From Pseudomonadota bacterium (GTDB lineage: Bacteria > Pseudomonadota > Alphaproteobacteria > Puniceispirillales > Marisalimonadaceae), in contig JAQBXK010000017.1 in the NCBI GenBank assembly GCA_027625145.1, positions 1 through 40,976 on the forward strand: a DNA stretch of 40,976 nucleotides, given 5' to 3'. Positions 2 to 3,703 of this stretch are shown here, piece after piece. The notes beneath the pieces were generated by a model, which was given only the letters and a program-made list of their open reading frames with translations, was not told where the DNA came from and made no database searches. Within the stretch, counting starts at the first letter, position 1. Each line of letters begins with the position of its first letter. A program made the translations under genes and the position numbers.

Positions 2-355
2 TGTTGGGTCCAAAATCAGCGGATTACTAAGGATGTGTATAACAATAAGCAATCCCAACTCATCAACAGAAGGCAGGCAATTAACCAGCAGTTAGAACAA
101 CACCATAAAGGAAACGAACAATTCAAAATAGCCTTAAGCTCTTTGATTTCCTTGGCTTCACACGCATATGATATATTTGCCAGTTCGACAAATGATGAAA
201 AACGCCAATTGCTAGGATATGTGTTTTCGAACTTGGAATTAGAAGGGTCAAAGCTAGTCTATGCCTTGCAAAAGCCCTTCAACCTGTTTGTTGATTTGAC
301 CACTTGTCAAGAATGGCTCCCCGGGACGGATTCGAACCGCCGGCCAGACGATTAA
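2..355 (+). CDS. C-terminal part of a site-specific (serine-type) recombinase, cut by the window edge
   Basis: The frame is open from base 2, so the gene begins outside the window; a GTG at 35 is probably internal. What is visible is a Gln/Asn-rich helical, coiled-coil-like segment, then a tail with LASHAYDIF, EKRQLLGYVFSNLEL and KPFNLFVDL. From memory this resembles the C-terminal end of serine recombinases of the resolvase/invertase superfamily (large recombinase type); catalytic residues would lie upstream and cannot be checked. The last residues (LPGTDSNRRPDD) are antisense tRNA-Asn sequence, so the reading frame ends inside the tRNA gene. Base composition is less AT-rich than the neighbouring genes, consistent with an acquired element. 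It probably belongs to an island or prophage integrated at tRNA-Asn. It could instead be a decayed remnant. Confidence 0.6.
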   Translation, partial: CWVQNQRITKDVYNNKQSQLINRRQAINQQLEQHHKGNEQFKIALSSLISLASHAYDIFASSTNDEKRQLLGYVFSNLELEGSKLVYALQKPFNLFVDLTTCQEWLPGTDSNRRPDD

Positions 356-388
356 CAGTCGTCTGCTCTACCGCTGAGCTACCGGGGA
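314..388 (-). tRNA. tRNA-Asn (anticodon GUU)
   Basis: The reverse complement folds as a complete cloverleaf. The acceptor arms TCCCCGG and CCGGGGA pair fully, the discriminator is G and CCA is encoded (314-316). The anticodon stem is GACGA/TCGTC around the loop CTGTTAA, giving anticodon GTT. The T arm contains TTCGAATC. It lies 62 bases downstream of selU on the same strand. Its 3' half faces, and is overlapped by, the recombinase reading frame, as expected for a tRNA used as an integration site. Confidence 0.96.
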
Positions 389-391
389 ATA

Positions 392-414
392 TTTATTGTT
401 TTTATCACAATAAA
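392..414. repeat. 8-bp A/T-rich hairpin between selU and tRNA-Asn
   Basis: TTTATTGT (392-399) and ACAATAAA (407-414) are perfect inverted arms around a 7-base loop. It sits between the selU stop and the 5' end of tRNA-Asn. It could be a weak terminator for selU or a processing site; with one G-C pair per arm it would be weak. Confidence 0.35.
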
Positions 415-450
415 TTATAGATGCAAGCTAAAGACTATTAAATTTAAATT

Positions 451-1494
451 TTATTTAGTTTTTATAATTGCCATAGCAATGTTCTTAATATCAGAAAGAT
501 CTAATGTATTAGCTTTAATTTCTTTTATTAACTTTCTATCATTTTTTTTGGTATTTGATGAATATGATGAATCATAATGGTTTTCTAAAAAATTTTTAGT
601 TAATTCATACCATTTTTTTTCATTAATCATTTTTTCCCAGTTTTTAATAATAAAATTATTTTTTTTATTTTTTAAACCTTTAATAATTGGGTTAATTAAG
701 GATGGATCATTACACATATAATTATAGTCATTAATAAGAAAGTTAGTTCTTGTATGGATACTTGCTTTTATCTCAAATCTTGGAGACAAAAGCATTTTAG
801 ACCATATTGATTTAGGTATATGAATGTTTCCAATTTTACTACTTTCTGCTTCTACATAAATGGTTTTTTTTAAGTTTATTTTTTTAATTTCATAATACAA
901 TAAACTTTCAAAATATTTTTGAGAAGGTTGTTTTAAATTAGGTATTATACCTAGTAATGATCCTTTATGATTAGCTAATCCTTCTAAATCTAATATTTGT
1001 CCTCCTTGATCTTTAATACTATGTAAAATTTTTGTTTTAGCAGATCCTGTCTTGCCGCTTATAAGTATTATGTTAAGTTTGGTTCCTATATAATCTATAT
1101 ATTTAATAACATCATTTCTATACTCCTTGTAACCACCTTGAAGCTGAGATGTTCTCCAACCAACTTCAGATAACACTATGCAAAAAGCTCTAGATCTTTG
1201 ACCTCCTCGCCAACAGTATACTAGTGGTTGCCAAGACCCGTCTTTTTCTATGAAATTATGCTCAATATGATGTGCAATATTTTTAGCAGATATAGAAGAA
1301 CCAATAATTTTAGCTTTAAAGCTACTTATTTTTTTATAGATTGTTCCAACTTTTTCTCTTTCTTCATTATTTAATACGGGGCAATTAATAGCGCCTACAA
1401 TGTGGTCTTCGTTAAATTCAACAGGAGCTCTAACATCAATAATAGTGTCAAATTTTTTGTTGTTCCATATTTTAGTAATTTTATGCTTTTTCAT
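451..1494 (-). CDS. selU: tRNA 2-selenouridine synthase (SelU/MnmH)
   Basis: Converts 2-thiouridine at wobble position 34 of tRNA-Lys, -Glu and -Gln to 2-selenouridine using selenophosphate, via a geranylated intermediate in the enterobacterial enzyme. The 347 residues are close to the family length (about 360). An N-terminal rhodanese domain shows DVRAPVEF (20-27) and the active-site loop YCWRGGQRS with Cys94. A C-terminal P-loop domain has the Walker A motif GKTGSAKT (147-154). It starts 4 bases after the selD stop on the same strand, so it is translated with the gene that supplies its substrate. No selA or selB is present in this window, so selenium may be used only for tRNA here. The assignment is firm. 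Confidence 0.95.
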   Translation of the reverse strand: MKKHKITKIWNNKKFDTIIDVRAPVEFNEDHIVGAINCPVLNNEEREKVGTIYKKISSFKAKIIGSSISAKNIAHHIEHNFIEKDGSWQPLVYCWRGGQRSRAFCIVLSEVGWRTSQLQGGYKEYRNDVIKYIDYIGTKLNIILISGKTGSAKTKILHSIKDQGGQILDLEGLANHKGSLLGIIPNLKQPSQKYFESLLYYEIKKINLKKTIYVEAESSKIGNIHIPKSIWSKMLLSPRFEIKASIHTRTNFLINDYNYMCNDPSLINPIIKGLKNKKNNFIIKNWEKMINEKKWYELTKNFLENHYDSSYSSNTKKNDRKLIKEIKANTLDLSDIKNIAMAIIKTK

Positions 1495-1498
1495 GACA

Positions 1499-3703
1499 TT
1501 ATATAAGTTTTATTTTGTTGTTAATATTATTTACATGCCCAATGATTGAGTAATTTATTTTGTTCTCTTTTAATAATTTAAATGTATTTTTTTTTGTTTT
1601 AGAGGAAATAATAAAAGCTAATCCACCCACTGTTTGAGGGTCATATATAATTTCATCAATTAATTTATTATCTCTTTCATAAATAATATTTTTATAAGCT
1701 GCATCATAATTAGCATTATATAAAGATGACCTAACACCTTTTTTTAATGCTAATGGAACTCCTTTATAAAAAGGTATATTATTGATATTTATTGTTAATC
1801 CATTAAGATTTTTATCTCGCTTAATTAAATTCAAAAGGTGGTTTGCTAAACCAAAGCCTGTTATGTCTGTCATTGCTAAAATTTCAAGATTATTAGATAA
1901 CATTCCAATTTTTTCGTTGCCTTCTGTCATTTGTTCAATGACATCTATCTGATAATGACTATCAATAAAATTATTATTTATTCCAGCAAAAATTAGCCCT
2001 GATCCTAATTTTCCGGTTAATATCAATAAATCTCCTTCATTTATTTTATTATGATTATATTTATTTTTAATTATTTTATTTTCTCCTGTAATAGAAAATC
2101 CTATTACAGGATCTTGATCATTGCCTATCATTGTATGTCCACCATTCAACAAACAATGATTTAGATTAAACACACTTTGTGCACCTAAAAGAACTTGATT
2201 TAAATCTCTTGAATTTATTTGAGGTGAACTTAATGGTAATTGAAGTATCATTTGAGCAGAAATTGGTTTTGATCTCACAGCGTAAATATCACTTAAAGAG
2301 TGATTTGCTGCAATTTTACCTAATAGAAAAGGGTCAGTTATAATTGCATTTATCATATCAATAGTTTGAAATAAATTTGGATAGCTTGGAATTGGAGAAG
2401 CATCATCAGAAGATATTATTAGTTTTTTTGGCAAAGATTTTTCAAGAGCACTAAATGATACTTTAGCTGCACAACCTCTACACTGCATTTGGATTTCTTC
2501 AAATTCTTTAATATCTATTTTAAAGCCAAATTTATTAGTAAATGATGCAATGGTTTTTTTAAATTTTAAAGCTAAAGGTATTTGTTCATATTGATTAAAT
2601 TTCCTAACAAAATTTTTATCGATAATTTTTTTTATAATAAAATTAAATTTAGATAAGTTTGAAAATCCATATTTTGTAGCAATAGCATTGCCATTTGATA
2701 ATCCTATTAAAGCTAAATAATTGTTTTTATGATTAAATAAATATTTAGGTTTATTAGCAATGTAGTTTCTAATACTTTTAGCAAGAGGTTTTCCAGATCT
2801 TACAGCATAAACTCCTGCTTTAGGTAAATTCATTTTATCAAATTCTGCAATGTCTCCAGAGGCAAAAATAAAATTATAATTCGTCTGAAAAGAACTGTTT
2901 ACAATTATAAATCCTTTTTCATTTAAGTTAATATCTGATTTTTTAAGCCATTCTGGTGCCATGGCATCAGTTGCTAATATACATTTGTCAACATTAAATG
3001 TTTTGTTGGTACTTGTAACAAAACAGTTTTTCTGTATTTCTATAACTCTCTCTTTATCAACAATTTCTATTTGAGCAATATTTAGTGCTTTCCTTGATTG
3101 TATTTGAGATTTTTTAGGAAATGTTTTAAGTAATCCATTATATCCAGTAACTATAATAATTTTTAAAGGATGGTTTTCATTTTTATAGCGATTTCTTAAA
3201 GCTAAAGCTAATTCAACGGCTGCTGCACCACCACCTATAAAAGCTATAGATTTAATTTCCTTCATTTTATTTAAGAAATTTGAACTCAACTTAGATATTG
3301 GTTTTACAGATAAAGAAAACTTTTTTGCACCTTTTATATTAGTATAATTACTTTTTATACCACAATTAATAGATAAGAAATCATATGATATTGAAGGTCT
3401 GTTTTTTAAATAAACTTCTTTGTTTTCCCCTGAAATATTTATAACTTCTGAATGTATAAATCTAATATTTAATTTCATTGAAAATTTAAAAAGATCTATA
3501 TGAGTCTGTCTCCAAGAATAAATACCTTCTATATATCCTGGTATCATTCCAGAATATGGAGCGTCTAACTCATTACTAATTAAAGTTATTCTAATACCCT
3601 GAATTGGTTTTTTAGCATAATTCATCATTAATATTAAATGAGAATGACCTCCACCAACTAAGATTAAGTCATTTTTAATTAATGTGTTTTCAGGCTTAAA
3701 CAT
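1499..3703 (-). CDS. selD: FAD/NAD(P)H oxidoreductase fused to selenide, water dikinase (SelD)
   Basis: The 734-residue protein has two parts. Residues 1-390 resemble NADH dehydrogenase-like FAD oxidoreductases, with an N-terminal dinucleotide motif VGGGHSH (16-22), a second one FIGGGAAAVE (155-164), and FASGDIAEF (280-288). Residues 400-734 are SelD, which makes selenophosphate from selenide and ATP. The SelD active site is GCAAK with Cys411 and Lys414. The codon is TGT, so it is the cysteine form rather than a selenocysteine form. DDASPIP, NGGHTMIGN and TDITGFGLANH are further SelD signatures. NDH-SelD fusions are known; the oxidoreductase part may feed reduced selenium to SelD, but that is inferred. 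The gene follows tRNA-Cys by 24 bases and precedes selU. No Shine-Dalgarno is evident before the ATG. Confidence 0.93.
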   Translation of the reverse strand: MFKPENTLIKNDLILVGGGHSHLILMMNYAKKPIQGIRITLISNELDAPYSGMIPGYIEGIYSWRQTHIDLFKFSMKLNIRFIHSEVINISGENKEVYLKNRPSISYDFLSINCGIKSNYTNIKGAKKFSLSVKPISKLSSNFLNKMKEIKSIAFIGGGAAAVELALALRNRYKNENHPLKIIIVTGYNGLLKTFPKKSQIQSRKALNIAQIEIVDKERVIEIQKNCFVTSTNKTFNVDKCILATDAMAPEWLKKSDINLNEKGFIIVNSSFQTNYNFIFASGDIAEFDKMNLPKAGVYAVRSGKPLAKSIRNYIANKPKYLFNHKNNYLALIGLSNGNAIATKYGFSNLSKFNFIIKKIIDKNFVRKFNQYEQIPLALKFKKTIASFTNKFGFKIDIKEFEEIQMQCRGCAAKVSFSALEKSLPKKLIISSDDASPIPSYPNLFQTIDMINAIITDPFLLGKIAANHSLSDIYAVRSKPISAQMILQLPLSSPQINSRDLNQVLLGAQSVFNLNHCLLNGGHTMIGNDQDPVIGFSITGENKIIKNKYNHNKINEGDLLILTGKLGSGLIFAGINNNFIDSHYQIDVIEQMTEGNEKIGMLSNNLEILAMTDITGFGLANHLLNLIKRDKNLNGLTININNIPFYKGVPLALKKGVRSSLYNANYDAAYKNIIYERDNKLIDEIIYDPQTVGGLAFIISSKTKKNTFKLLKENKINYSIIGHVNNINNKIKLI

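Follow-up and report, generated by a model that had tools for sequence, protein, structure and literature searches.

The left end of the window, that is, of the whole 40,976-nucleotide stretch of DNA analysed here, very probably represents the recombinase-side end (attL) of an integrative element that carries a large serine recombinase (LSR) and resides at the 3' end of a tRNA-Asn gene, with the element end reaching from position 1 to approximately position 321. An open frame homologous to LSRs runs into the antisense strand of the tRNA gene, the site is empty in related genomes, and the same layout is found in many homologues of the recombinase. The LSR itself would have performed the integration, the crossover is provisionally placed at the very end of the tRNA by comparison of related elements, and the rest of the element probably lies beyond the contig. 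The window corresponds to one entire contig (C35) of a fragmented, metagenome-like genome of 2.27 Mb in 83 contigs.

A serine recombinase frame ends inside tRNA-Asn

The recombinase frame is open from the contig start and comprises 117 codons, and the 5' part of the gene lies beyond the contig start (Table 1). As the TAA stop overlaps the antisense of the anticodon, the last 13 codons (W105 to D117) together with the stop are located within tRNA-Asn. The tRNA gene was recognized by ARAGORN over its full length and by Rfam at 317-388 with 69.3 bits, and all of its 75 bases are identical across 18 relatives. The first 450 bases have a GC content of 0.39-0.41, compared with 0.19-0.33 for the segments that cover positions 451-1650.

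Table 1. Features at the left end of the window and the basis on which they were assigned.
Feature	Position	Strand	Basis
C-terminal 117 codons and stop of the LSR gene	2..355	+	Open frame and homology to LSRs
Probable common core: last 8 bases of the tRNA (3' end), also present in the C17 copy	314..321		DNA identity between window and C17 ends at 321
Intact tRNA-Asn(GTT) with encoded CCA; target gene (attB), restored at the junction	314..388	-	ARAGORN; Rfam
Stop codon TAA of the recombinase frame, from the tRNA anticodon loop	353..355	+	Sequence and frame
Host flank: intergenic DNA and selU-like gene (rhodanese domain)	389..1494	-	97.9% identity to G004 over 309-1852; selU by tRNA-Asn in relatives

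LSRs are characterized by a Resolvase catalytic domain with a nucleophilic serine, which is followed by Recombinase and Zn-ribbon domains. The window fragment alone returned nothing meaningful in Pfam, NCBIfam or PDB searches, but it shares 65% identity over 97 amino acids with residues 391-487 of the LSR at locus L100, which has Resolvase, Recombinase and Zn-ribbon domains, and 33% identity over 97% of the query with an LSR of Legionella adelaidensis (NZ_LR134433.1, WP_084758891.1). In the relatives L100, P0001 and L112, the families PF00239, PF07508 and PF13408 all score above the cut-off. The matches to L100 and to the Legionella enzyme identify the window frame as an LSR C-terminus; judged by this homology, the junction gene is a large serine recombinase and no tyrosine integrase, and the window carries its C-terminal 117 codons. 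In the tree, the sister of the window sequence is a second copy from this genome, on contig C17 (99/84), and L100 joins the pair next (100/98), inside the LSR group; the window row fills 21% of the columns, and its position thus rests on the C-terminus.

The first-pass annotation of this DNA had proposed that a recombinase C-terminus, in visibly less AT-rich DNA, runs into an antisense tRNA-Asn that supplies its last codons. The homology to L100 bears out the recombinase, the 13 codons and the stop within the tRNA confirm the borrowed ending, and the GC content of about 39% to the left of the tRNA, compared with 19-33% to its right, agrees with the difference in composition. The profile search that it had suggested as a check recognized the full-length homologues, which have all three domains, but not the fragment by itself.

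Antisense tRNA genes at the 3' ends of homologous recombinases

The LSR gene of L. adelaidensis also ends in an antisense tRNA-Asn, and that of L100 ends in a tRNA-Glu. Two phage records with the nearest LSRs show ends in tRNA-Leu and tRNA-Glu, and a broken LSR copy of Neochlamydia ends at a tRNA-Tyr. Neither genome_contigs nor viral_contigs yielded a confirmed relative when scanned with the two-sequence alignment A1. When three tRNA-ending LSRs were aligned and used to scan genome_contigs, at least 225 relatives were obtained, and the best 80 of 225 were kept; the query LSR itself ends in a tRNA, which may slightly favour such relatives in the ranking.

An antisense tRNA is present at the LSR 3' end in 59 of these 80 best homologues, and 14 isotypes are represented (Asn 18, Gln 14, followed by Glu, Leu, Pro, Ser, Arg, Asp, Ala, Tyr, Val, Trp, Phe and Lys). 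Within 250 nt of the LSR start, no tRNA was detected at any of the 80 loci, five of which have less than 250 nt there. The stop codon lies inside the tRNA in 49 of the 59 loci, beyond it in ten and before it in none; one of the 59, L107, meets an in-frame stop before it reaches the tRNA. In 49 of the 59, the frame crosses the antisense CCA in one common register and reads it as Trp, and the tRNA is located 54-212 nt past the homologous part in eight. The layout recurs in named genomes, some of them with contigs of more than 100 kb. A full antisense tRNA is missing from the other 21 homologues. Eight of these match a tRNA fragment with an E value of 1e-3 or better (L086, L089, L109, L113, L137, L138, L140 and L146), four have an LSR that runs off the contig (L087, L096, L122 and L130), and by that test nine show neither a tRNA fragment nor a contig end (L080, L081, L082, L084, L098, L121, L127, L157 and L158).

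The same tRNA test was applied as a control to 30 loci with the best PF07508 matches from 299 genomes of the phylum. Here, 24 loci have no tRNA at the 3' end and six end inside an antisense tRNA-Met(CAT); the LSRs of these six are approximately 20-29% identical to the Legionella LSR in short alignments and use another register. Thus, with 59 of 80 loci compared with 6 of 30, tRNA use is far commoner in the LSR group of the window, yet it is not confined to this group. The second group, which uses tRNA-Met(CAT), consists of L235, L239, L243, L248, L249 and L252, with tails such as GVGFEPTTFRL.

When the 14 isotypes and 'none' are placed as labels on a tree of 85 rows, 43 changes are needed, whereas the minimum is 14; over 200 shuffles of the labels, the mean was 54.4 and not one came down to 43. 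Thus, the tRNA targets are partly inherited and often changed.

The unoccupied site in relatives and the missing part of the element

The search of the family with the recombinase fragment covered 58 genomes, including the genome of the window, and detected no further recombinase among them; 18 relatives were matched via the tRNA itself. None of the 18 family genomes in which the locus was examined has an LSR at tRNA-Asn, and their DNA to the left of the tRNA is unrelated to LSRs. Weak matches in G038 (C3) and G032 (C7) were considered as recombinases and rejected, the frame lying between flagellar-type genes. G004, a congeneric genome, aligns with the window for 1544 bp, starting at position 309 and extending to the right (Table 1), and diverges to the left of the tRNA, where it has yqaA-like, uup-like (ABC-F) and cysK-like genes and no recombinase. 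The genes yqaA, uup and cysK lie beside the tRNA in all ten flank loci, which come from 10 of the 18 relatives with G004 included, and selU is on the other side of the tRNA in nine of them, while the tenth contig ends at the tRNA. In the genome of the window, cysK is found at the end of contig C16, and yqaA and uup were not found at the 40 of 433 candidate places that were scored. The comparison of the left flank in G004 and the other relatives with this genome therefore indicates that the insertion took place directly at the tRNA 3' end, and that the assembly lacks the far side of the element. Because no trace of it is present in the 18 relatives, the insertion is recent on their scale.

In the first-pass annotation, the junction had been read as the classic layout of an element in a tRNA 3' end, for which a second copy of the tRNA 3' half (approximately 37 bp) was expected on the left flank; the same recombinase beside tRNA-Asn in all relatives would have marked a fixed remnant instead. 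The boundary stands, as the site is empty in G004 and unoccupied in each of the 18 relatives, and this also speaks against a fixed remnant. The layout with a long repeat, which is familiar from tyrosine integrases, needs revision, since the enzyme is a serine recombinase. A search for a second tRNA-Asn 3' end found none in the assembly within 3 mismatches over 23 nt; the contig begins inside the recombinase gene, PF07508 has no match in the genome, and the catalytic part of this LSR, the island and its far end are absent from the assembly. The missing 37-bp repeat would not refute an integrated element, because the tRNA sequence common to near-identical elements is only 7-10 nt long, or 19 nt in one pair (see below).

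Two further features of the flanks were observed. Most relatives from other genera (among loci L013-L026) have a small frame between yqaA and the tRNA that ends directly at the tRNA 3' end (...SWEKLCK); it is absent from G004 and a few others. On the other side, window positions 1499-3703 (minus strand) encode a pyridine-nucleotide oxidoreductase fused to a selD-like AIRS protein, which adjoins the selU-like gene and is kept in relatives.

The recombinase copy on C17 is 78% identical to the window copy in protein and 84% in DNA, with a dN/dS of 0.17 between the two over 97 codons. The DNA match stops 8 bases into the antisense tRNA (W-L-P), and the C17 copy has no adjoining tRNA; the agreement at the tRNA-proximal bases could reflect conservation of W-L-P at the protein level. 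The C17 copy is a fragment without the part that precedes the shared stretch, and it sits within a different element at the 3' end of groEL. That element is distributed over C65:1-5357 (L069) and C17:1-845 (L010) and has a 430-amino-acid tyrosine integrase (PF00589, PF13356) at the groEL 3' end; the last groEL codons are repeated at its far end on C17, beside lysS, and the serine recombinase piece lies within it. At L010:1-154, on the same C17, a stretch of approximately 76-97 nt recurs, 86-100% identical, on further contigs of this genome and in the relatives G004, G039, G044 and G009, and several of the copies are near contig ends.

These data bear on the alternative that the window holds a decayed remnant, i.e., an old piece of an LSR element at the tRNA with nothing sizeable to its left. 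The C17 copy is such a piece, albeit inside a different element, and the genome has no PF07508 domain; still, we regard a remnant as unlikely, as the 117 codons are open and the lack of any trace in the 18 relatives points to a recent insertion on that scale. The dN/dS of the two copies also argues against decay, although it speaks for the lineage and not for the window copy, and, with a contig that ends inside the gene, the missing 5' part need not be a truncation.

A chimera of assembly or binning, in which recombinase and tRNA originate from different strains or organisms and were joined via the tRNA sequence, is quite improbable. The closely related LSR copy in another contig of the same genome argues against it, as does the recurrence of the layout in named genomes with long contigs, and if two strains had been joined, one of the two would still have to contain a genuine LSR-tRNA junction. 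It would be favoured by the fragmentation of this metagenome-like genome, by a contig that starts at the junction, by a tRNA that is identical over 75 nt in 18 relatives, and by the failure to find the expected yqaA and uup among the places scored even though cysK ends C16.

Extent of the shared core and a model for integration

The preferred reading, an LSR-borne element integrated at the tRNA 3' end, raises the question of where the crossover occurs. Six pairs of loci have 60 of 60 identical nucleotides before the tRNA, and the pair members are therefore near-identical elements. Their identity continues into the tRNA for 7 nt in L097/L098 and L136/L137, for 9 nt in L102/L103 and L128/L051, for 10 nt in L135/L050 and for 19 nt in L092/L089. 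Past the shared run, the members of a pair differ, with other host tRNAs, no tRNA (L098, L089) or a mutated fragment (L137). Runs of 30-77 nt are common to pairs that are less alike upstream or that lie in near-identical tRNAs, and these are uninformative on the crossover. Because the identity of the six pairs ends 7-10 nt into the tRNA (19 in one pair), the crossover probably occurs at the acceptor/CCA end, with no need for a long repeat. Of the tRNA, the element thus appears to contribute no more than the last 7-10 nt, and in the window we infer a crossover at the eight bases shared with the C17 copy (Table 1) or close by.

In the mechanism that we propose from these sequence comparisons, the LSR gene would read outward across the attachment site, so that in the integrated state the host tRNA would provide the last LSR codons and the stop. 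The element would carry the last 7-10 nt of the tRNA, comprising the CCA, the discriminator and the start of the acceptor stem, and a serine-type crossover would exchange these bases for identical bases of the host. The tRNA would stay whole because the element carries these nucleotides.

A displaced tRNA fragment was present in 2 of 12 tested homologue genomes or records (G066 and G076), and only G066 is simple. In this Daviesbacteria contig (locus L112), the LSR lies beside a full tRNA-Asn, and an 18-nt displaced repeat of the tRNA 3' end, oriented the same way, is found approximately 8 kb from the full gene. In the stretches compared from the other ten, no repeat of the tRNA-Asn 3' half was found near the LSR, and repeats of 7-10 nt are indistinguishable from chance. 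The far end of the attP-like sequence of L098 was sought in the L097 genome, where it matched on the recombinase side only.

In G076 (L204:5081-17158), a full tRNA-Asn is followed by 12 kb of another element, which has type III restriction-like and tyrosine-integrase-like genes, and then by a 51-nt tRNA fragment and the LSR. This arrangement probably represents two elements in tandem at one tRNA. A crossover by the LSR in the anticodon loop was considered from the 51-nt fragment, together with similar fragments of 45-47 nt at L140, L146 and, as seen by eye, L081, and was rejected: because the element with the tyrosine-integrase-like gene lies between the fragment and the full tRNA, the fragment may be the boundary of that other element.

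It is very unlikely that a tyrosine integrase made the insertion into the tRNA gene and that the LSR piece is its cargo. Such integrases are described as the usual users of tRNA genes (PMC4383910), an element of G076 at a comparable site carries a tyrosine-integrase-like gene, and the genome of the window has a tyrosine integrase at groEL; however, it is the LSR that adjoins the tRNA, 49 of 59 homologues do so in one register, and a shared core this short is more in keeping with a serine enzyme. Finally, the chance run of an unrelated open frame into an antisense tRNA, with which the absence of a Pfam match to the isolated fragment would agree, is refuted by the homology, i.e., by 65% identity over 97 amino acids to a full LSR and by the layout in 59 of 80 homologues.

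The tail encoded by the tRNA

Among the 49 LSRs with the same register, the tail supplied by the tRNA ranges from 3 to 66 amino acids, and WRE and WRERRGSNPRPHA are the tails of two LSRs that agree in their last 60 nt. The tRNA-coded tail as a conserved functional part was therefore rejected, and the tail is probably a by-product. Five copies that are located off a tRNA (C17, L082, L084, L121 and L127) share related tails such as WLPLLDIFRT; four of them have the native tail W-L-P-x-[LI]-D-x-x-R-T, and the fifth has a looser form. Because of these related tails, we retain a bold reading as a long shot: attP might lie inside the 3' end of the LSR gene, each integration might swap the native C-terminal codons for codons of the host tRNA and, if the two forms differ in activity, the exchange might serve the entire clade as a switch between an integrating and a resting state, a serine-family counterpart to the alteration cited for Mx8 IntP (see below).

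Comparison with known systems

The Islander study (PMC4383910, 2015) refers to tyrosine integrases as the only integrases known to target tRNA genes. Because serine enzymes were not known to target tRNA genes, surveys of tRNA-associated islands have been limited to tyrosine integrases (PMC4383910). Ghinet and colleagues (PMC3218068, 2011) describe serine-mediated integration into tRNA genes as rare; the examples they give are phiRSM1 (tRNA-Ser) and eight mycobacterial AICEs (tRNA-Leu). No description of an LSR clade with tRNA 3' ends as its default target was found in the literature searched, which mostly did not include subscription papers and preprints and thus provides no proof of absence.

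Like the window, the Mycobacterium AICEs have the serine recombinase of an integrative element in a tRNA gene, with eight related recombinases at one tRNA (tRNA-Leu), a likeness drawn from their description only (PMC3218068). The Ralstonia phage phiRSM1, as cited in PMC3218068, also has a serine recombinase at a tRNA 3' end; its enzyme is 'resolvase-like' by the title of the paper, and here too the comparison is by description only. The tyrosine integrase islands of the Islander study (PMC4383910) resemble the window in having an intact tRNA at one end with the integrase gene beside it, and a displaced tRNA fragment is expected at their other end. In contrast to these islands, the window group has a serine enzyme and a shared core of approximately 7-10 nt instead of a long tRNA fragment, and its crossover is placed at the extreme 3' end of the tRNA and not in the anticodon loop, the T loop or the T/acceptor junction, as given in PMC4383910. 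The integrase IntP of the Myxococcus phage Mx8, cited in PMC4383910, is similar to the window in that its gene extends across attP, so that integration alters the C-terminus; judged by its use in that study, IntP belongs to the tyrosine family and represents a single phage, whereas the enzyme of the window is a serine recombinase. The LSRs of Legionella (WP_084758891.1) and of the metagenome-assembled genome with L100 belong to the same group as the window, are whole genes and are annotated as 'recombinase family protein' or not annotated.

What is new here is the enzyme at the tRNA, a serine recombinase, together with the very short shared core, both of which are common to a broad group of homologues. 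If tRNA 3' ends are the default target of this LSR group, whose members come from Pseudomonadota, Patescibacteria and others, and if the isotype often changes, then surveys miss a class of islands; those that seek long repeats would also miss them, because the shared core has only approximately 7-10 nt. Compact serine integrases that accept conserved tRNA ends could serve for DNA insertion in bacteria that lack genetics.

Genes beside the recombinases

Upstream ORFs of at least 150 amino acids were taken at 56 of the 80 loci, up to approximately 2.4 kb from the LSR, and ten of the upstream ORFs tested with PADLOC were chosen for their length. Among the matches listed (25 of 77 families), at least 11 of the 56 upstream ORFs are defence-like by our judgement, comprising four type III restriction enzymes, GajB, HEC-05, PDC-S37, a type II and a type IV restriction enzyme, SoFic and AbiEi. 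Other upstream ORFs resemble replication, RecT or further recombinase genes. The nearest relative of the window LSR, L100, has a type III restriction enzyme beside the recombinase. Examples of the upstream ORFs are L100:321-2924, L104:718-2634 and L105:513-2996.
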